Below are positions 22,145 through 57,269 of a stretch of 64,000 nt of DNA, piece by piece; the first letter of the stretch is position 1, and each line of letters opens with the position of its first letter. The notes beneath the pieces are model-generated. The model searched no databases, was not told the origin of the DNA, and saw nothing but the letters and a program-made list of their open reading frames with translations. A program made the position numbers and the translations under genes. The stretch lies in assembly GCF_034259205.1 (NCBI RefSeq), contig NZ_CP139487.1, positions 3,100,001-3,164,000 on the forward strand. The letters are read 5' to 3'. The stretch comes from Peredibacter starrii (lineage in GTDB: Bacteria; Bdellovibrionota; Bacteriovoracia; Bacteriovoracales; Bacteriovoracaceae).

Positions 22145-22720
22145 TTAATACTTCGGTGCTAGTTCATTCATGATTTTACCAAGCGCGTATGGCACAGAGT
22201 AAATTCGGCTAGATGTGTAGTACGAAGTATGGCTGTAACCCAACTTATGCATCCATTCGTGCATCATATTGTGAGCAACCTCTGAAGAGGTGTACTTGTT
22301 AAAGAACTTCGTGTTCATGTTAATGACTTTACTGGAAGTCGTTGTGTAACCCACTGTGCTTGAATTTTGGTAATACAACTTAACAGTGATATCCATCGCA
22401 TTGTTCTTTGTCGGCGTCAGCTTTTCTGCTCCTTCCAGAATTTTTTGATAGATCTGAGCATTAGTTAGACCATTGTTACTCAAAAACTGTTTCTTGCCGG
22501 CGTATGTGTGATTAAGAACGCGGGTACGGAATTCTTCAGAACCAATGACTGCGCGAATTTTTCTTTCGGCCGACTGAATTTTTGATTCCTGTGAACTGGT
22601 CATGCCTACAGTTGTAACATTGGTGTCAAAGGTCTTGGCCAAGGTTGGCACCGCTGCGAGTGAAGCTTCTACAGAGAACAAGCCGACTGCAAGCGCGAGA
22701 GGAAGTACCGATTTCGTCAT
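22145..22720 (-). CDS. short secreted metzincin-like metalloprotease (paralogue A)
   Basis: 191 residues with a signal peptide. The C-terminal part has the full metzincin zinc motif HEWMHKLGYSH (His154, Glu155, His158, His164; HExxHxxGxxH). Ten residues on, the conserved YSVPY takes the place where metzincins have the Met-turn, but without Met. Shared blocks with the proteins at 45.4 and 49.3 kb include EFR.RVLNH.Y.GKK.F, NAQIYQKIL, EKL.P..NN.M, VGYT and NTKFFN, so the three are paralogues. No inhibitory pro-domain is obvious. Predicted exported peptidase; possibly cotranscribed with the small Cys protein downstream. Confidence 0.78.
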   Translation of the reverse strand: MTKSVLPLALAVGLFSVEASLAAVPTLAKTFDTNVTTVGMTSSQESKIQSAERKIRAVIGSEEFRTRVLNHTYAGKKQFLSNNGLTNAQIYQKILEGAEKLTPTKNNAMDITVKLYYQNSSTVGYTTTSSKVINMNTKFFNKYTSSEVAHNMMHEWMHKLGYSHTSYYTSSRIYSVPYALGKIMNELAPKY

Positions 22721-45419: not shown

Positions 45420-46241
45420 TTAAAGTGAATTCCCAATGGAACTGATCATTCGTCCGATTGCGTAAGGAACAGAGTAATCACGGCTCGTCGAGTAAGATGT
45501 AGCGTGACCAAAGCCAATTTTGTGCAACCATTCATGGAACAAGTTTGCAGCGACTCCACCTGTTGAGTTTGTATTGAAGTACTTAGTGTTCACCCAAATT
45601 CGCTTGCTGTTTGCGTAAGTATAACCCACAGTCGTTGTGGCGGCGTAATACAACTCAACTTCCATATTCATCGTATTGTTTTTTTCCGGGAAAAGTTTTT
45701 CAGCAGCTTCCAGGATCTTTTGATAGATCTGTGCATTTGTAAAACCACCATTATCGACGAAAGTCTTCTTTCCGTTGTATGTGTGATTTAAAACTCGGCT
45801 GCGAAACTCTTCAGTTGCCACTACGGCCTTAATCATCTCAATGGCCTTATCAAACTTGGCCTGCTGAGTAGAAGTTGTATTTACAAAAAGAATGTCGGTA
45901 TCAAATGTGTAGGCCTCAGTAGGAAGACCACCTGTTGTGCCGCCAGTAGTTGAACCGCCAGTTGTAGATCCTGTTGTTCCACCAGTGGTAGATCCAGTCG
46001 TGCCACCTGTTGTTGAACCAGTAGTTCCACCACCAGTTGTAGTACCTGTAGTTGAACCAGTTGTGCCTCCGTCAGTTGAGCCAGTTGTTTCACCGGTCAC
46101 TGGTGGTTGAGTCACTGTACAATCAGTTGAACCCGTTTCCTCTGCTTGCGCTGTATCTGTACAATCACTTCCCGATCCGTCGTCTTTATTACAAGCGACG
46201 AGGAAAAGAGATAAAAATAATAGGGCCCAGATTTTGCTCAT
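45420..46241 (-). CDS. lipid-anchored metzincin-like metalloprotease (paralogue B)
   Basis: 273 residues: lipoprotein signal LLFLSLFLVAC, then a linker of about 75 residues made of Gly-Thr-Thr-Gly-Ser repeats (after TGETTGSTDGG), then the catalytic domain. The zinc motif is HEWLHKIGFGH (His236, Glu237, His240, His246) followed by RDYSVPYAIG. Shared blocks EFRSRVLNHTYNGKK, NAQIYQKILEAAEKL and NTKYFN tie it to the proteins at 22.1 and 49.3 kb. The long flexible tether would let it work away from the membrane surface. Repeat length is likely variable between strains. Confidence 0.8.
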   Translation of the reverse strand: MSKIWALLFLSLFLVACNKDDGSGSDCTDTAQAEETGSTDCTVTQPPVTGETTGSTDGGTTGSTTGTTTGGGTTGSTTGGTTGSTTGGTTGSTTGGSTTGGTTGGLPTEAYTFDTDILFVNTTSTQQAKFDKAIEMIKAVVATEEFRSRVLNHTYNGKKTFVDNGGFTNAQIYQKILEAAEKLFPEKNNTMNMEVELYYAATTTVGYTYANSKRIWVNTKYFNTNSTGGVAANLFHEWLHKIGFGHATSYSTSRDYSVPYAIGRMISSIGNSL

Positions 46242-46839: not shown

Positions 46840-47985
46840 CTAGGCAAGTGCTGCTTCTAAATCCCTGATCAAATCCTCTGCGTCCTCAAGTCCGACTGAT
46901 AGTCGAACTGAATATGGTGTGAGTAGCATCGATTCACGCTCTTCTGGTGTGAGATCGAGCCCAAAGAATGCGAGCGTAGGTGCGATGACTGATTCAGTTG
47001 AACCAAGACTTGCTGCCAATTGAATGAGTTTTAATTTGTGACAAAAATTATCCGCACTTTTTGCAATAGAAGGATCCACTTCAAATGAGATGGTACTTCC
47101 CATGTCTCTCATCTGTCTTCGGGCAAGTTCTGAATTAGGATATCTCACCCATTTAATTTTCGGATGGGATTCAAGAAACGTTACAATCTTTTGGGCCGTT
47201 TCAGTCTGTCGAGCATAGCGAAGCATATAGGTCTTAAGGCCCCGAGTAATAAGGTAGGCAGCATGAGGATCAAGGGCCGCACCTAACTGCAGACACATCT
47301 CACGAATTTGCTTAAGGACAATGCTCTTACCAGCAATACAACCGGCGATAACATCTCCGTGACCATTACCAAATTTGGTGAGACTATGGATCATGATGTC
47401 TACATCGAATTGAGTATGCTGATGAAGGCCCGCAAAGGTTCCGTCCATACTTACTAGTACATTATATTTTCGGGCGACACTAATGATCTTCTCAATATCA
47501 GCGATCTCAAGGTTGGGATTAGAAGGACTTTCAAAATGAATGAGCTTGGTCTTTCCAGATACAATGGCACTTTCTAGCTGATTCATCTCCGTCAAACTTA
47601 GAAACGTTGAGGTAATTCCAAAGTGAGAAAGACTGTCACGGATAAACACACGGCTGGGACGATAAGACTCTTTAAAAGAGATGATATGATCTCCGGTTTT
47701 AAGAAGCCCCAGAAAAGTTCCAGTCAAGGCCGCGACACCTGATCCAACCACCATACAATCTTCACGCTTTTGAATTTCAGCGAGAGTCAATTCCAACTGT
47801 CGTGTGGTGGGATTCGAGACCCGAGAATACATAAACTGTTCAAAGTAAGGTTGAGATTCACTTGGATAATATTTTGCCGACAGAAAAATCGGTTGAATCA
47901 AAGGTTTATTGCCTTCCGGAATTTTAATTTCTACCGGGTGATTAAGCTTGGTGTTTACGTTCCATTCAGATCTATTTTTTTGCAT
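46840..47985 (-). CDS. PLP-dependent trans-sulfuration enzyme (cystathionine synthase/lyase-like)
   Basis: 381 residues of the Cys/Met metabolism PLP family. YSRVSNPTTRQLE is the hallmark entry motif, GSGVAALTG holds the phosphate site, VSMDGTFAGL and HSLTKFGNGHGDVIAG contain the PLP lysine (Lys in SLTK). Length matches cystathionine gamma-synthase or gamma-lyase. The family converts homoserine esters, cystathionine or cysteine/methionine; the exact reaction is not readable, and no other sulfur genes are adjacent. Confidence 0.85.
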   Translation of the reverse strand: MQKNRSEWNVNTKLNHPVEIKIPEGNKPLIQPIFLSAKYYPSESQPYFEQFMYSRVSNPTTRQLELTLAEIQKREDCMVVGSGVAALTGTFLGLLKTGDHIISFKESYRPSRVFIRDSLSHFGITSTFLSLTEMNQLESAIVSGKTKLIHFESPSNPNLEIADIEKIISVARKYNVLVSMDGTFAGLHQHTQFDVDIMIHSLTKFGNGHGDVIAGCIAGKSIVLKQIREMCLQLGAALDPHAAYLITRGLKTYMLRYARQTETAQKIVTFLESHPKIKWVRYPNSELARRQMRDMGSTISFEVDPSIAKSADNFCHKLKLIQLAASLGSTESVIAPTLAFFGLDLTPEERESMLLTPYSVRLSVGLEDAEDLIRDLEAALA

Positions 47986-47997
47986 ATTTCCCTCGCA

Positions 47998-48888
47998 TTA
48001 AAATGCGTATCCCATAATTCCACTGAAAGTAAGCGCGATATCATTCGCATCCGCCAGGACCCCTTCGTCATCTTTGACATGTAGGTAAAGCCCACCAATC
48101 CCTGCTCCAAAAGTAAATCCACTTCTAAAGAGCCAATTCGCGGAGAAGTCGGCCTTCATGACCAGCCCTAAGTCTCGATCAAAAGAAGTTCCTCCCATAA
48201 GATCAAGCTTTGCAAAGATTGAATTATTAAAATCAATCTTATCCCCCACCATGAGAGTTGGCCCTACTAACCAGTAGGCCCCTTCTCTGCGTACTTCAGA
48301 GCTATCAACACTGACTGTATCTTCTTTGGTTGAATAATAACCGGACTCAAAAGAAAGTCCCTTCTTAATGGAGCTAGCTTTTTCAATCTCTTCAACAAAT
48401 ACGGAGTAACGGGCCCCTAATAGACCCCCGTGCCGTGCTGTTTGCTCGTCACCCTCGCCGATAATCGTTGTTCCTTGTAACGTCGCCATTTGAGATATTT
48501 GGAATTTCTCCTTATCACCAGTGGCATAGTCATAAAAGAGAACGGGGACATAGGGAATCCAGGCAACAACCACCACCACTCCAACGATGGCGAAAATGAC
48601 AAGTGCTGCGTCCTTCGTTCCACCAGTACCAAAATCGGTAAAGATATCAGCAAAGTTATTGGCGTCATTACTGGCCTTCTCTAGACGCTCCTCTTCTTTT
48701 TTCTTTTTGATTTTTTCTTCGTCGGTTTGTGAAAGATGAATTTGGTGGGCCTTGCCGCTTTTTACAAGGTGCTCAAATACCTCGGGTGAAACCTCTCGCA
48801 CAACAGGGCCTTTCTCCGCAGCAAAGGATACTTTCGGCAAAAGAAGAAGACACAAAAGCAAGGAAAGGCATGATTTCAACATACCCAT
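47998..48888 (-). CDS. exported membrane protein with beta-barrel-like C-terminus
   Basis: 296 residues: signal peptide (LLLCLLLLPKVSFA), a charged helical segment (DEEKIKKKKEEERLEK), a transmembrane helix (ALVIFAIVGVVVVVAWI) and a C-terminal half of beta-hairpin type strands (FAKLDLMGGTSF, FSGIMGYAF) with aromatic C-terminus. Unknown family. It follows the trans-sulfuration gene upstream in the same direction with 12 nt between. Confidence 0.62.
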   Translation of the reverse strand: MGMLKSCLSLLLCLLLLPKVSFAAEKGPVVREVSPEVFEHLVKSGKAHQIHLSQTDEEKIKKKKEEERLEKASNDANNFADIFTDFGTGGTKDAALVIFAIVGVVVVVAWIPYVPVLFYDYATGDKEKFQISQMATLQGTTIIGEGDEQTARHGGLLGARYSVFVEEIEKASSIKKGLSFESGYYSTKEDTVSVDSSEVRREGAYWLVGPTLMVGDKIDFNNSIFAKLDLMGGTSFDRDLGLVMKADFSANWLFRSGFTFGAGIGGLYLHVKDDEGVLADANDIALTFSGIMGYAF

Positions 48889-48917: not shown

Positions 48918-49274
48918 TTAATGAATCAGGTTAAACTTTTGCTTTTCTTCTTCTGTGTATCCGTAATCCACAGTTATCTCTTCGCCGGATTTAATTTCTC
49001 TCAGGGATTCGATGCACAGAAGCTTCTTTCGATAGTTAAAGTAGAAACGACTATTAGGTTGGTTCGAATGGTTATAAAGAGAGCCATTCCCGAGGGCAAG
49101 CGCAACTAACTTTTTGCTGTATTGATAAACATAGCCCTCTAACGTAGGACCGACTTCATGCAGATCCATCAGAAGTAGTTCACATTCTTCAATGATTTGT
49201 TGTTTCTCAATTTTCTGATCGGCAAAAACACCACGACCCTTCTTCGGGTCATGTTCAATGAAGACCTTAATCAT
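48918..49274 (-). CDS. SET-domain protein (putative lysine methyltransferase)
   Basis: 118 residues from ATG 49274, which shares the sequence ATGA with the stop of the upstream metzincin gene, so this start is preferred over the TTG three codons earlier. The minimal SET fold is complete: GRGVFADQKIEKQQIIEEC, LYNHSNQPNSRF (SAM-binding NHS/NP motif) and GEEITVDYGY (catalytic Tyr). SET proteins methylate protein lysines. It is an unusual partner for a secreted protease, because it has no signal peptide and should act inside the cell. Confidence 0.82.
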   Translation of the reverse strand: MIKVFIEHDPKKGRGVFADQKIEKQQIIEECELLLMDLHEVGPTLEGYVYQYSKKLVALALGNGSLYNHSNQPNSRFYFNYRKKLLCIESLREIKSGEEITVDYGYTEEEKQKFNLIH

Positions 49275-49846
49275 AGTTTCCAAGGCTTTCTTGCGAGTTC
49301 CCTTACAATGTATCCAATGCCATAAGGAACAGAATACTGTCGCTTCCAGGTCGCCTTATAGTCATGATCGAACCCTAGTTTATGAAGCCATTCATGAGTA
49401 AGATTTGAAGCAACATTCGCTGGGGTATGGCGGTTAAAGAATTTGGTGTTCATCCAGATACGTTTGCTACGGGGAAGTGTGTAGCCCATCACTTTCGAAT
49501 CATGATCAGTATAAAGTTCCAACTCAAGATCCATAGCATTGTTACGCATAGGTTTTAGCTTCTCGACCCCGGCCAGAATGGCATTATAAATTTGTAAATT
49601 GCTCATGCCGCGGTTATTCGCAAATCCCTTTCTGCCGTTATATCGATGATTCAAAATTCTTCTTCTGAATTCAGGCGAAGTGAATACTTTACGAAGAAGT
49701 TCAATTGCCTCATTTACTTTATCTTCTCGAGTCCGACTCATTCGAAGCATTTTTACATTAAATTCAAATGTATAAGCGGCCTCGGGAACAACAGCAAATG
49801 AATTGAACGAAAACAGTAAAGTTAAAAGAAGAAATAGTGATCTCAT
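49271..49846 (-). CDS. short secreted metzincin-like metalloprotease (paralogue C)
   Basis: 191 residues with a signal peptide (MRSLFLLLTLLFSFNSFA). Zinc motif HEWLHKLGFDH (His151, Glu152, His155, His161) followed by RQYSVPYGIG. Blocks EFRRRILNHRYNGRKGF, EKLKPMRNNAMD, GYTLPRSKRIW and NTKFFNRHTPANVASNL link it to the two other paralogues. Its stop overlaps the SET-domain start by 4 nt (ATGA), so the two are made together. Confidence 0.8.
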   Translation of the reverse strand: MRSLFLLLTLLFSFNSFAVVPEAAYTFEFNVKMLRMSRTREDKVNEAIELLRKVFTSPEFRRRILNHRYNGRKGFANNRGMSNLQIYNAILAGVEKLKPMRNNAMDLELELYTDHDSKVMGYTLPRSKRIWMNTKFFNRHTPANVASNLTHEWLHKLGFDHDYKATWKRQYSVPYGIGYIVRELARKPWKL

Positions 49847-49922: not shown

Positions 49923-50657
49923 CTAGTTTTCCGCGACTTTTAAAGTTGCTGAAAAAACGACTTTTTGATCCTGTGTTCTGAATCCCTGAAATTGGAATTT
50001 GTCCTCTGACAAAGCACCACCGTAAATCACGATCGTGTCATTTGACATGGTCTCTGCGATGAAATTCACCTCATATTCTTTCAAGGTATATTGGCGATGC
50101 TTGGCCTCTGAAATGGAATCCAAAATCCATTGAGCATAACGAGTATTATTAACGTGTCCATTGAGATCGAGATCGCTATTGCGAACTTGGAACTGGGCCA
50201 TTTCTTTTAAATCATTTTTGAGATGGATCTTCCCTGCTTCCAAAAAGGGTGGCGCGTCCATGCGGAATTGACCTTGATCCTGCAGTCCAACTGCGGCAGG
50301 TTTTCTGGTCTTTAAATCAAGGATCAGCCATTGAGTGGTACATTCACCGAACTTCTCACCTTGATCTAGAATCTCAAAATCCCGAACGGCAAAAATGCCA
50401 TTGATAGGACGGACCCAGGTCCTGAGTTCAATATCGTCACCCCACTTGGGCCAACGGTTCATACTAAGTTTTTGTCTTGTGAGCACCCAAGCGGTCTGTT
50501 CCTGAATCATCGCCTCATAACCGTGTCCCAGATGAGTGGCATGAATCCAGGCGGTGTCCTGAAGAAGATTCAAAAGACCATAAAGTCCTAACTTCTTCTG
50601 AGGATTCACCAGAAAAGTATTAACATTGTATGTTTGGGTCCAGATAGTTTCTTTCAT
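49923..50657 (-). CDS. acyl-ACP thioesterase
   Basis: 244 residues with a double hot-dog layout: WTQTYNVNTFLVNPQKKLGL at the start and DLDLNGHVNNTRYAQWILDS near residue 175, the NxHVNNxxY catalytic region of acyl-ACP thioesterases. AWIHATHLGHGYEAM and WVRPINGIFAVRDFEI also fit. It releases fatty acids from acyl carrier protein. It is the last gene before a terminator-containing gap. Confidence 0.85.
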   Translation of the reverse strand: MKETIWTQTYNVNTFLVNPQKKLGLYGLLNLLQDTAWIHATHLGHGYEAMIQEQTAWVLTRQKLSMNRWPKWGDDIELRTWVRPINGIFAVRDFEILDQGEKFGECTTQWLILDLKTRKPAAVGLQDQGQFRMDAPPFLEAGKIHLKNDLKEMAQFQVRNSDLDLNGHVNNTRYAQWILDSISEAKHRQYTLKEYEVNFIAETMSNDTIVIYGGALSEDKFQFQGFRTQDQKVVFSATLKVAEN

Positions 50658-50800: not shown

Positions 50801-51436
50801 TTATCCGCAAGAAACAAGCTTGTAGCCAACTCCACTAATGGATTTAATCTGCAACGCCTCACCGGCCACATTAGCAAGTTTTTTACTGAGGAGTTTGATT
50901 CTTTCTTCAGTCAAAAGTTTATCTGCCCAAGCGATTCTTCCTGCTTTACGCGCTAAGATGACCATAATATCCATCTCTTTTTTCCCTAGAGAAAGAATTT
51001 TATCTTTCACAGTCACAAGACTTCGCGCTAGATCAATCCGCAGATCACCATATACAATCGGTCTTGCCATCAGACGTTTTCTCTCCAGTTGTTTATTGAG
51101 AATCATCTTAAGCTCAGACATGTTGAATGGTTTTAAAATATAATCATCCATTCCTGAATACATGCCATGCAAAATAGAAACTTCATCATAGCATTCACCC
51201 ATTACCACCATGGCGGCACCTGAGCCGCAATGTCTGAGTTCTTTACAAAAGTCCAGGCCATTACCTTCACGAAATTTATAATCGAGTAATATCAGATCAA
51301 AGTGAATTTCTTGCAGGTATTTCCAGGCATGGTCCAATGTGGGAGCTGCTTCGACAATGAAACCATTGTAAGTTAAAGTATAGTTGAGCATTCTTGCAAA
51401 CTGCTCGTCATTCGAAACAACTAAAATCTTTGTCAT
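50801..51436 (-). CDS. OmpR/PhoB-family response regulator
   Basis: 211 residues from ATG 51436, chosen because AGGAGG lies 6 nt upstream and the receiver begins at once (MTKILVVSNDEQFARMLNY); an ATG at 51535 would add 33 residues. Receiver: LILLDYKFREG with Asp near 53, YILKPFN near 102. C-terminal winged helix from about residue 127 (IVYGDLRIDLARSLVTV, SISGVGYKLV). It is downstream of the histidine kinase gene by 95 nt and is its likely partner. Confidence 0.88.
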   Translation of the reverse strand: MTKILVVSNDEQFARMLNYTLTYNGFIVEAAPTLDHAWKYLQEIHFDLILLDYKFREGNGLDFCKELRHCGSGAAMVVMGECYDEVSILHGMYSGMDDYILKPFNMSELKMILNKQLERKRLMARPIVYGDLRIDLARSLVTVKDKILSLGKKEMDIMVILARKAGRIAWADKLLTEERIKLLSKKLANVAGEALQIKSISGVGYKLVSCG

Positions 51437-51531
51437 AACATCCTCCTGGTAAGAAGAGAGTGCCATAATTTCGCAGTCACTAAAACCGAGGTAACGGTTT
51501 CCAAAAAATGGATTCCATACTTTTTCCAATA

Positions 51532-52902
51532 TCATTGAATGGAGAAACTTTCATAATTCACTCCTCTCGCGCCTCTCTCATCCATTGGTAATTCAATTAG
51601 GAAGGTTGTATGAGGAGCATTTGGAACATATGAAATGTTTCCACCATGTTTGTGAAGAATGGCATTGATGAGTGTAAGACCCAGGCCCGTGCCCTTGTTG
51701 CCTTTGGTAGAAAAGAACGGCTCCATCATGTGCTCGACCACTTCAGGTGAAATACCATTGCCTGAATCCTTGAAATAAATATCAATGTATCCGTTTCTTT
51801 GCACAGTCGATAATTCAATCCATTTTTCGTTCTCACCATCAATGGCATCAAGAGAATTGTTAACGAGGTTTACGAATACCTGTTCCAACTGAACTTCATG
51901 TCCTCTAAGATAAATTCCTTCAACTTCACTTAATCGCAGTTCAATGCCATGGTTTTGTAAGCGCTGGCCGCAAAAAACCAATACATTATCAAGCAGGGTT
52001 TTAAGTTCTATCCGTTCGTAAGGAAGTTGATCCTGCTGATAGAAAACGTTACGAACACTCTTGATGGTGCGGTCTATGCGGTCAGTGGTATAAAGAATTT
52101 GCTGCAGTCCTTGAGCGAGTTCTTTTTGCTGTTCAGGGTTTCGATAAATTCTAAGAAGCTGTGTAGTTCGGGCCTGGATAATAGTCAGTGGATTATTAAT
52201 CTCATGAGCGATACCGGCCGACATCATGCCAAGTTCAAAAAATTTTGCCTTATCCAAAAGATCCTCCTCATGTATGAAAGGTTTTTCCTTTCGATGAGGA
52301 TTAAGAGTAGCGAACAGTGAGGTCACCCCCATGATTATCAGTATTATGGTGTTACTCACTAGACTTAAATTCATAATCTGATCACTTACTTCCCAAAAAG
52401 GGACGATTATCTGAAGGGCCGAAAAAAGCGTAAACATTAACATCGTCCCTCTTACATCTTCTGAGACCTTGATCATGGTTTTGAGTGTGTTCCATACAAA
52501 CACTAATCCACTGACACAAAAACCTACGAAGAAAGGTAGAGAGAAAGTCACAAAGGGATAACCCATCATTATGTATATGAGACTCATTAATGCCCCGACC
52601 AGAAGAATGACCCCCGGGGTCTTTCTCAACCCCACGTGAAAAGAATCGAGATAGCGCCACATTCCCCGCATCGGCCATAACCAACTGATCATCATGAAAG
52701 GGGAAGACTCCCTGTCCAAGTCAATGGCCAATAAGATAAACAGATGCATAAAAGCAAAAGACAACCATAACTCTACCAAGGGAGAAAATCTGATTTGTTT
52801 GTCTTCTCTACTTTGTATGGCCGCAAAAATCGCAATCAGGAGAGAAAAAGCACTGAGTATTGATAAAAGAATTACAAAACTCTTCATGTAATGATTGTAC
52901 AT
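51532..52902 (-). CDS. membrane histidine kinase
   Basis: 456 residues: six or seven hydrophobic helices in the first 190 residues (for example GVILLVGALMSLIYIMMGYP), then a HisKA domain with GIAHEINNPLTIIQA (phospho-His H-box) and a HATPase domain with NLVNNSLDA (N box), KDSGNGIS (G1) and GTGLGLTLI (G2). The sensor part resembles the multi-TM sensors that read membrane or small-molecule signals. Alternative start at ATG 52887. Same-direction partner of the response regulator. Confidence 0.86.
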   Translation of the reverse strand: MYNHYMKSFVILLSILSAFSLLIAIFAAIQSREDKQIRFSPLVELWLSFAFMHLFILLAIDLDRESSPFMMISWLWPMRGMWRYLDSFHVGLRKTPGVILLVGALMSLIYIMMGYPFVTFSLPFFVGFCVSGLVFVWNTLKTMIKVSEDVRGTMLMFTLFSALQIIVPFWEVSDQIMNLSLVSNTIILIIMGVTSLFATLNPHRKEKPFIHEEDLLDKAKFFELGMMSAGIAHEINNPLTIIQARTTQLLRIYRNPEQQKELAQGLQQILYTTDRIDRTIKSVRNVFYQQDQLPYERIELKTLLDNVLVFCGQRLQNHGIELRLSEVEGIYLRGHEVQLEQVFVNLVNNSLDAIDGENEKWIELSTVQRNGYIDIYFKDSGNGISPEVVEHMMEPFFSTKGNKGTGLGLTLINAILHKHGGNISYVPNAPHTTFLIELPMDERGARGVNYESFSIQ

Positions 52903-54196: not shown

Positions 54197-54687
54197 AAGT
54201 CTAACTTAGTTACCATTCGGGGCGAAAGGATTGTAGTGAGTTTCAACTCCTCAAGACTTTCCCCCGCTAAAACTGCTACTCCCCCCTTCTCTAATTCAAT
54301 TCTAATCTCACAGTTTTTATTCAAGAGATAATTCATAGACTGAGAAAGCAAAGGCTCATGTCCCACAAAACAATACACACCATCTGTATCAAGGTCATTG
54401 ATTGAGTTTTTGAATTCCTTGGGTGTCGAGAATGGATCCAGGGTGGTCAGAATTTCGTATTCACTCTTGTGGTTTTCCGAATAAACGATGTTCGCCGTCT
54501 GAACGGCACGAAACAAGGGACTGGTATAGATCACGTCAATTTTACGAAAAATAAAGTGAAGAGAGTGAACCATCTCCTTTACTTCCTGGGCCCCGTCCTT
54601 TGTTAGGCGACGCTTAAAATCATCCATCTCAGTTTGATTTTTCTTTTTATCTTCTGCAGTACCATGTCTTACAAAAATGAGTTTCAT
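54193..54687 (-). CDS. sixA: SixA-like phosphohistidine phosphatase
   Basis: 164 residues of the histidine phosphatase (phosphoglycerate mutase-like) family, starting IFVRHGTAE with the catalytic RHG, plus DVIYTSPLFRAVQTA (second basic/His region) and VGHEPLLSQ (GHxP). SixA removes phosphate from histidine of HPt-type or PTS-linked proteins. Here it is the last gene of the ornithine-lipid/arginase unit, overlapping arginase by 4 nt; its tie to that pathway is unclear. Confidence 0.8.
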   Translation of the reverse strand: MKLIFVRHGTAEDKKKNQTEMDDFKRRLTKDGAQEVKEMVHSLHFIFRKIDVIYTSPLFRAVQTANIVYSENHKSEYEILTTLDPFSTPKEFKNSINDLDTDGVYCFVGHEPLLSQSMNYLLNKNCEIRIELEKGGVAVLAGESLEELKLTTILSPRMVTKLDF

Positions 54688-55649
54688 AAATAACGACCTG
54701 AAGTTGTTCTTGCCTCTAACATGGCAGGCATTGGTTTCTTTTCTTTTCCAGCGTGAAAGACCTGGCCCAAGGTGGCCTCCACGAACTCTAACACTAATGC
54801 AATAGAGCGTTCTACACTGGCCGCATCACCAATTTGAGGATTAAGTTCCACCAAATCCATGCTCTTTAAACGTCCGGTTTCTGCAAGAACACCACCCATC
54901 AAAAAGAGCTCTTCTAGCTTCGGTCCATAGGGAACTTTAGTGCCAGTTGAGTCAATGTCCATTTGATCAAAGACGTCCACGTCAAAACTTAGGTGAATGG
55001 GGCAAATACCAAAAGGATCTGCCTTATGGAGCGCCATCTCAATGACTTCTTTAGCACCTAAACGATTGATGTCTTCAGATGAGTAGTACTGAATGTTATG
55101 ACGAGCGATGATGTCTTTTTCTCCTTCATCGAGATCTCGTGGACCGAAGAAGATAAGTTTATTCGGAAGTAGCTTGCGACGGATCCAACCAAAGTGAGGG
55201 TGCTGAGACAGACCCAATAAAAACGCTAAAGGCATTCCGTGAAAGTTCCCACTGGGAGAAGTTTCCGGAGTGTTAATGTCTCCATGAGCATCGGCCCAAA
55301 CCACCACACTTTCCGGATGATGTGAAAGAAGACCATGGATTGTTCCTAGACCCAATCCATGGTCTCCACCGACGTTAAGGAGAAAACTTTTCGACAAGTC
55401 TTCCTCTTCTAAACGATCACTAATGGCCTTTGTTCCGAGACCAGCACCAAGAGAATGCTTAATGTATTTATCTTTCTTGGCCTCGACTAATTTGAAAGGA
55501 AAAATGATGTCGCCCAGATCTTCAGTCTTCACAATATTCTGAAGACGAGGAATAAGATTGGCCTCTCTTAGAACATGGGGAGCGAGCCTTACACCAATGT
55601 GGTCCTGACCAAAATCAAAAGGGATACCGATAACTTTAATATCTTTCAT
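54684..55649 (-). CDS. arginase (ureohydrolase family)
   Basis: 321 residues. Mn-binding motifs are in order: GGDHGLGLG, WADAHGDIN (DAHGD) and SFDVDVFDQ (DxDxxD), with PSGNFHGMPLA (substrate loop) between. This pattern and length fit arginase rather than agmatinase, producing ornithine and urea from arginine. The gene sits between a PlsC-like acyltransferase (14-nt overlap) and sixA, after an OlsB-like acyltransferase, so ornithine could feed the lipid made by the two upstream enzymes. Confidence 0.87.
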   Translation of the reverse strand: MKDIKVIGIPFDFGQDHIGVRLAPHVLREANLIPRLQNIVKTEDLGDIIFPFKLVEAKKDKYIKHSLGAGLGTKAISDRLEEEDLSKSFLLNVGGDHGLGLGTIHGLLSHHPESVVVWADAHGDINTPETSPSGNFHGMPLAFLLGLSQHPHFGWIRRKLLPNKLIFFGPRDLDEGEKDIIARHNIQYYSSEDINRLGAKEVIEMALHKADPFGICPIHLSFDVDVFDQMDIDSTGTKVPYGPKLEELFLMGGVLAETGRLKSMDLVELNPQIGDAASVERSIALVLEFVEATLGQVFHAGKEKKPMPAMLEARTTSGRYL

Positions 55650-56427
55650 AAGTGGTCCGAATCATATCCTGGGTGGTTTTTGCCAAGTAAAAGCGATCAT
55701 CCCCCTTCACTTCAGGAAGGCGAATGACGTGAGCATAAATTTCTTTTTGCATACAGAGGCGAAAAAGATGATCCGGGAAAGTCATCTTTCCATACCATGG
55801 CACCGCTTCACTTCCTGCTCCTGAATAAGAAAGAGTTAAAGGAAGCACCGGAATATTCGCTTCAACTGCGAGTTGGAAGAAGGTCGATTTAAACGGAAGC
55901 ACCTGACAACCATCTGAACTTGTTCCTTCCGGAAACAGAAAGATGTTGTGGCCATTTCTTAACTTCTCAGAGATGTCGTTTAATTCATTTTGCTTAGTAT
56001 GTTCTGTGCGTTTAATTTTTCTTCTTTCGACAAAGAAACAACCGGCAAGATTCGTTAACTGACCCAACAAGAAAGTCTCTCGAATTTCAACTGAGGTAAT
56101 AAAAAGCGATGGGTAAAATGCCGAGAGGATCAAAACGTCAAGGTAAGAGAGATGATTGGCCACGATGAGCCTTTGTTTTACTTCGCCTCTTGTACCATCT
56201 AGGGAGACCTTGACGTTCAGGATCAATAATCCAAGCTGAGCAAAGAAAGGAATGCTCTTAAGGTAAACCTTCAAACGCTTCTTTTCGTTTGTAATAAAGA
56301 AGGCCATTAGTGAATGAACCACTAAGAAAGACATGATCACAAGAAAGAAGGCAAGAAAACGGAACAGACCAATGAACACATAAAGTGGATTTGTTAGTTC
56401 TTTTTTCTCAATGCTTTCTGAAATCAA
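55636..56427 (-). CDS. PlsC/OlsA-like 1-acyl-glycerol-3-phosphate-type acyltransferase
   Basis: 263 residues with an N-terminal membrane helix (FRFLAFFLVIMSFLVVHSLM). Acyltransferase motif I VANHLSYLDVLIL (HX4D), motif III FLFPEGTSSDG and AGCFFVERR are present. Next to an OlsB-like gene it may be OlsA, which attaches the second fatty acid to lyso-ornithine lipid, but phosphatidate synthesis is an equal possibility by sequence. Overlap of 4 nt with the upstream gene and 14 nt with arginase. Confidence 0.82.
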   Translation of the reverse strand: MISESIEKKELTNPLYVFIGLFRFLAFFLVIMSFLVVHSLMAFFITNEKKRLKVYLKSIPFFAQLGLLILNVKVSLDGTRGEVKQRLIVANHLSYLDVLILSAFYPSLFITSVEIRETFLLGQLTNLAGCFFVERRKIKRTEHTKQNELNDISEKLRNGHNIFLFPEGTSSDGCQVLPFKSTFFQLAVEANIPVLPLTLSYSGAGSEAVPWYGKMTFPDHLFRLCMQKEIYAHVIRLPEVKGDDRFYLAKTTQDMIRTTYERY

Positions 56428-57269
56428 GCAAACCTCCGTTCAAAAGATGCCGGGAGTTCATTCATATCCATCAATGTGAACATGTCCAGGCAATCCATTT
56501 CAGCATCATAGGCCAAGGTGCGACCTAATTTTGCTCCAGCAAGAAGGTACATGTGCATGAGCGAGCCCATGGCCTTCCCACCAGACTTCTCTGCATTTAC
56601 TGGAAGACTGAATTTCAACTTGTACTTCGCCTGAACTCCCACTTCAAAGTTTGCAATGAAACTGTTTTGTTTTTCGAGTTGTTCCATCATTTCCGCCACA
56701 CTACCAAAGTCCTTTCGGTTAATGCTTGAGCACCCGAACATATAACGAGTGCCGGATTTTTTGGCGTATTCAATCAGACCTTTCCATAGAAGCGAAATCA
56801 CCGCGCCTTTACGATAGTCTTTGTGAACGCAGGCCCTGCCTAGTTCCAGCTTATGCCCCGGGGCCTTCAAGAGCTCATCAATTTGAAACTCCCCTTCTGA
56901 GTAAAAGCGTTTAAAGGAACGATCAGTATTTGTGGACAAGAGTCTATAACATGCCACGACCTTATTCAGGGCCTTGTCCTTCACAATCAAATGGTCACAA
57001 ACGAAATCGTGCATATCTACGTCATAGGGAAACAAGGAGAATGTCACCTTCTGAGTAGAGAACTCTCTAAAGAACACTTCAAAACGAAGCGCCAACACTT
57101 GGGCAAGTTCTTCAGGATGGTTAACGGTCTTCACCTGATAGTAATCGTTCTCAAAATCGATCTGATAGGCCGGACGAAGGATCTTGCCTTCAAGGCTTTT
57201 AAGCTTTAGATAGTGAGGTACTCTTCCGATGGTAAACTGGGTGTTAAACCATAATGCGCCGACTTCCAT
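56424..57269 (-). CDS. OlsB-like ornithine N-acyltransferase (GNAT fold)
   Basis: 281 residues of the hemolysin-like acetyltransferase group that contains OlsB. YQVKTVNHPEELAQVLALRFEVFFRE, the DVDMHDFVCDHLIV segment and LELGRACVHKDYRKGAVISLLWKGL are characteristic of OlsB-type N-acyltransferases. OlsB joins a 3-hydroxyacyl-ACP to ornithine, giving lyso-ornithine lipid. It is the first gene of the unit and 4 nt from the PlsC-like gene. Confidence 0.78.
   Translation of the reverse strand: MEVGALWFNTQFTIGRVPHYLKLKSLEGKILRPAYQIDFENDYYQVKTVNHPEELAQVLALRFEVFFREFSTQKVTFSLFPYDVDMHDFVCDHLIVKDKALNKVVACYRLLSTNTDRSFKRFYSEGEFQIDELLKAPGHKLELGRACVHKDYRKGAVISLLWKGLIEYAKKSGTRYMFGCSSINRKDFGSVAEMMEQLEKQNSFIANFEVGVQAKYKLKFSLPVNAEKSGGKAMGSLMHMYLLAGAKLGRTLAYDAEMDCLDMFTLMDMNELPASFERRFA

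Follow-up and report, generated by a model that had tools for sequence, protein, structure and literature searches.

A gene for a predicted exported zincin and an overlapping gene for a vSET-like SET-domain protein are kept together within the genus of Peredibacter starrii

The pairing of a gene for a zinc peptidase of the zincin type with a gene for a SET-domain protein in Peredibacter starrii is real and conserved within one genus. Both genes are located in a 64-kb window, i.e. the whole stretch of 64,000 nucleotides of contig NZ_CP139487.1 analysed here (positions 3,100,001 to 3,164,000), and the genome that was surveyed comprises 4.15 Mb on a single contig. The inference that the data support best is that a peptidase destined for export is produced together with a methyltransferase that stays in the cytosol. 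The explanation that we tentatively favour is that the SET protein is a cytosolic protein-lysine methyltransferase that is co-expressed with the secreted protease, probably without acting on it, as part of a conserved operon-like block. The pair and its diagnostic sites are as follows:

49271..49846, minus strand: gene of the predicted exported zincin (191 aa; "metzincin C" of the sequence-only reading), Sec-type signal peptide by eye, AF2 model with pLDDT 92.5
48918..49274, minus strand: gene of the SET-domain protein (118 aa), vSET-like, without signal peptide, PF00856 with E 2.2e-14, AF2 model with pLDDT 90.5, top PDB fold vSET (3kma)
49271..49274, minus strand: ATGA overlap of the SET start codon ATG and the zincin stop codon TGA
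49364..49396, minus strand: codons of the zinc site HEWLHKLGFDH (H151-H161), all three His in 103/103 sampled zincins
49053..49073, minus strand: codons of the SET catalytic motif NHSNQPN, with N68, H69 and N74 invariant and P73 at least 90% conserved in 23 aligned SET sequences

The sequence-only reading had described the two genes as overlapping by ATGA, and this is borne out by the coordinates: the last two bases of the SET start codon are shared with the zincin stop codon, and the SET stop codon ends at 48918. The first start codon of the SET open reading frame is a TTG at 49283; the ATG at 49274 was chosen because it gives the ATGA overlap and agrees with the starts in the relatives. The proposed combination of an exported protease with an intracellular SET protein also holds, as the zincin carries a hydrophobic N-terminus (MRSLFLLLTLLFSFNSFA) that is typical of a Sec signal when judged by eye and the SET protein has none; the zincin is thus presumably exported. 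The ATGA overlap alone is ordinary, because 9 of the 43 same-strand neighbour pairs in the window can overlap by exactly 4 nt (13 overlap at all), including the response regulator and the histidine kinase just upstream of the zincin/SET pair. The two-gene overlap was dismissed as evidence by itself, being too common in the window.

More than chance is needed to explain that four further species retain both the gene order and the overlap; their zincin and SET proteins share 51-64% identity with those of P. starrii. This SET type is present in six of the 26 congeneric genomes, and in five of them (P. starrii, G002, G003, G007 and G008) the SET gene starts inside the end of the zincin gene. Absence of the pairing from all close relatives, which the sequence-only reading had named as the finding that would speak against it, is not observed, because the four congeners keep the pair with an overlap of 17 nt, compared with 4 nt here. 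Moreover, the conserved unit is larger than the pair: in all five species a small operon-like block comprises a response regulator, the zincin, the SET protein, in most cases an outer-membrane-like protein, and a PLP enzyme. Its further members in the window, named by their predicted functions, together with one additional gene, are:

50801..51535, minus strand: OmpR-type response regulator (PF00072, E 1.2e-17), preceding the zincin in each of the five paired species
49923..50657, minus strand: acyl-ACP thioesterase (PF01643, E 6e-23), separating the regulator from the zincin in P. starrii alone and absent from that position in the four relatives
47998..48888, minus strand: predicted exported outer-membrane-barrel-like protein (barrel by eye), no Pfam match over cut-off, next gene in four of the five paired species
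46840..47985, minus strand: Cys/Met-metabolism PLP enzyme (PF01053, E 7e-96), downstream in all five paired species

Of all the genes in the block, the outer-membrane-like one is the least consistently kept: an in-frame stop interrupts it in G007 (L041:9335-10129), and G003 lacks it. Between G002 and G008, the two closest species, dN/dS amounts to 0.12 for the SET gene and 0.09 for the zincin gene, documenting purifying selection on both genes in this species pair. The link between the two genes is not obligatory, as either occurs without the other. The SET gene of G001 stands alone, adjoining a chemoreceptor-like gene with no zincin there, and zincin orthologues without SET are found in G005, where roughly 3 kb separate the orthologue from the PLP gene, and in G009 and G010, where it is located elsewhere, next to genes homologous to the arginase, acyltransferase and GNAT genes of the window (54684-57269). 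In the tree of 103 zincins all five SET-linked copies and the SET-free orthologues of G005, G009 and G010 form one clade (100/99). Zincin orthologue and SET co-occur above expectation among the 26 genomes (Fisher p 0.0045), a value that ignores shared ancestry, includes several incomplete genomes and relies for some genomes on orthology judged by match scores rather than by the tree.

The identity of the SET protein is well supported. It matches the full PF00856 profile (1-105/105) with 54.2 bits at a cut-off of 22.4, and its motifs KGRG (GxG), NHSNQPN (NHSxxPN) and EITVDYG (E-x(3)-[DN]Y) are intact, with a core that is invariant or nearly so among the 23 sequences. The AF2 model adopts the SET (beta-clip) fold and matches vSET 3kma with E 3.1e-11. 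We are confident from these sequence comparisons that the protein is related to chlorovirus vSET, consists of a single domain and has kept its catalytic motifs. In the alignment its C-terminus lacks the WF segment found in relatives from other phyla, and for this reason its substrate or cofactor site may differ from theirs. The six copies of the genus form one clade in the SET tree (94/98), far removed from the other SETs detected in genus and family. Outside the genus, the closest matches stem from Paceibacterota, Uhrbacteria, Bacteroidota, Cyanobacteria and others, which suggests, without proving it, a horizontal gain of the gene. The nearest named relatives carrying it are "Bacteriovoracaceae bacterium" MAGs. 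SET proteins as such are not as uncommon in this lineage as had been assumed, given that a PF00856 domain of any type was detected in 19 of the 26 congeners and, across the family, in 35 of 129 genomes. Several family members (G046, G068, G071, G100) harbor two SET genes that lie no more than about 0.5 kb apart. A family of vSET-like proteins of about 120-140 aa (L067-L083), characterised by the motif ALGNGSLYNHSYxPNA and by WF at the C-terminus, occurs in Bacteroidota, Patescibacteria, Cyanobacteria, Chloroflexota and one archaeon, in varied genomic contexts.

This phylogenetic picture is compatible with another history, in which the SET gene, perhaps gained horizontally, lodged directly behind the zincin gene and uses the zincin mRNA for its translation, while the two products are functionally unrelated. 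The five related species would then keep the arrangement because of shared descent. We regard this account as possible and almost as likely as co-expression, close behind it: the genus copies are monophyletic with their nearest external matches in other phyla, an HExxHxxG zincin was found near the SET gene in 0 of the 17 loci examined from outside the family, each gene is found without the other, and 4-nt overlaps are common in the window. It fits less well with the persistence of adjacency and overlap at the observed protein divergence, while the genes flanking the block have changed.

According to the explanation favoured here, namely co-expression within the block, the first product would be a zinc peptidase that is exported and belongs to an unnamed, aspzincin-like family, and the second a minimal vSET-like SAM-dependent protein-lysine methyltransferase, presumably catalytically active, that stays in the cytosol. 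Ribosomes that terminate on the protease gene would start the SET gene via the overlap, so that the two proteins would be synthesised jointly, probably under conditions in which the upstream response regulator is active. The target of the enzyme would most likely be a protein of the bacterium's own cytosol and not the protease. Evidence counted for this proposal comprises the overlap kept at different lengths, the five-species block, the intact SET motifs and the vSET match, and furthermore the low dN/dS, the single zincin clade and the co-occurrence. Counted against it are the solitary SET gene of G001, the solitary zincin orthologues of G005, G009 and G010, and the missing WF segment.

The sequence-only reading had proposed to test whether the SET protein methylates the protease or a secretion component. 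In a related form of this idea, the zincin or a different exported block protein would be methylated in the cytosol, ahead of its export, as a mark of protection or maturation. If the SET protein acted directly on the zincin, it would have to do so before export; the overlap of the genes and the cytosolic location of the enzyme would permit such a meeting, and the adjoining gene encodes an exported protein with a lysine-rich stretch. However, a comparison of the five SET-linked with the SET-free orthologues revealed no zincin lysine that is common to the former and absent from the latter, and the neighbouring exported protein is missing in G003 and broken in G007. Methylation of exported block proteins is accordingly unlikely in our view, and the same holds for the protease itself as a substrate, a proposal whose support comes from the gene order and which is further weakened by the occurrence of the two genes apart from each other. 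A dedicated protease-methyltransferase module, in which the vSET-like enzyme would mark lysines of exported or envelope proteins before export and thereby set what the partner peptidase cuts, is still less probable. If true, it would provide a SET protein with a physiological role inside the bacterium that is linked to proteolysis.

Eukaryotic enzymes of the SET type methylate histones, and the bacterial SET proteins that have been studied best target host chromatin. The lineage of P. starrii includes predators of other bacteria, and delivery of the SET protein into another cell, where it would methylate proteins, therefore deserves mention. Prey bacteria are mostly without histones, and this argues against such a route, as do the lack of a signal peptide on the SET protein and of recognisable secretion genes in the block. 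There is precedent in the chlamydial SET protein NUE, which is delivered into another cell (PMC2904774), and tested bacterial SET proteins often act on host histones (PMC3980110), but we consider delivery very improbable here. No PF00808 match was obtained in this genome, and one partial match was found in another congener; with no histone fold detected in the genome, histones are not an obvious target, and a histone substrate was dropped. A substrate inside the bacterium looks likelier than one in a host because no histone was detected, the SET gene is under purifying selection and the block to which it is tied is conserved. The searchable literature yielded no earlier report of a zincin paired with a SET protein and no matching paper on SET proteins in Bdellovibrio, and the Bacteriovorax HI3 paper (PMC12827227) makes no mention of such a protease.

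The zincin belongs to a family claimed by no Pfam or NCBIfam model at its cut-off and represented by ten copies in this genome and by two to ten copies in each of the 26 congeners. At least one copy is present in 48 of 129 family genomes and in 44 of 291 genomes of a phylum sample that includes the family. Four of the ten copies lie within about 52 kb (22145-22720, 45420-46241 and 49271-49846 of the window, and genome positions 3173725-3174225, about 9.7 kb past the window end); the one at 45420-46241 starts with a lipoprotein-like N-terminus and contains a long linker of Gly/Thr/Ser repeats. A tandem pair is located at genome positions 1884039-1885307, and similar tandems occur in G002, G003, G007, G008 and others.

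Comparison with known peptidases qualifies the earlier assignment of this protein to the metzincins. Like matrixins and astacins, it possesses the HExxHxxGxxH motif, whose third His is universal among the sampled copies; unlike metzincins, it lacks the Met-turn methionine, since only 5 of 103 copies have a Met in the stretch from the third His to VPYxxG and no Met column of that stretch is invariant or near-invariant. Matrix metalloproteinase folds reach Z scores of 5 or less; these and astacin folds stand low in the structural list, a rank that counts against them without being decisive. The nearest solved folds of the model are the aspzincins of family M35 (AsaP1 2x3c, GfMEP 1g12, deuterolysin 1eb6), with Z 9.7-8.8 over 132-140 residues at 10-13% identity, and no Foldseek match at E<=0.001 was obtained. 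The PF14521 (Aspzincin M35) score of P0002 is 13.1 bits, below the cut-off of 30. In M35 the third zinc ligand is the Asp of GTxDxxYG, whereas the zincin here exhibits SVPYxxG at that stretch (P174, Y175 and G178 invariant) and the His of HExxHxxGxxH. We file it under neither family because the third His is universal, the Met-turn is missing and SVPYxxG replaces GTxDxxYG; it looks like a zincin family between the two, with a metzincin-like ligand set and an aspzincin-like predicted fold.

For the SET protein, a prokaryotic precedent is provided by Go1-SET of Methanosarcina mazei, an archaeal enzyme that methylates the organism's own DNA-bound chromatin protein MC1-alpha (PMC3980110); by analogy, our best guess for the substrate is one of the bacterium's own cytosolic proteins. 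Set7 of fission yeast (PDB 5h6z) is the second-best match by sequence and fold and differs in being eukaryotic, longer and, according to its PDB title, a histone methyltransferase. The best match by both sequence (5.5e-17) and fold is vSET (PBCV-1 A612L; PDB 1n3j / 3kma), a viral methyltransferase of histone H3 Lys27. Although the bacterial protein is encoded beside a predicted exported protease in a genome without a detected histone-fold protein, it resembles vSET in consisting of a single SET domain of nearly the same length (118 versus 119 aa), with 36% identity over 102 columns and a TM of 0.80/0.90.
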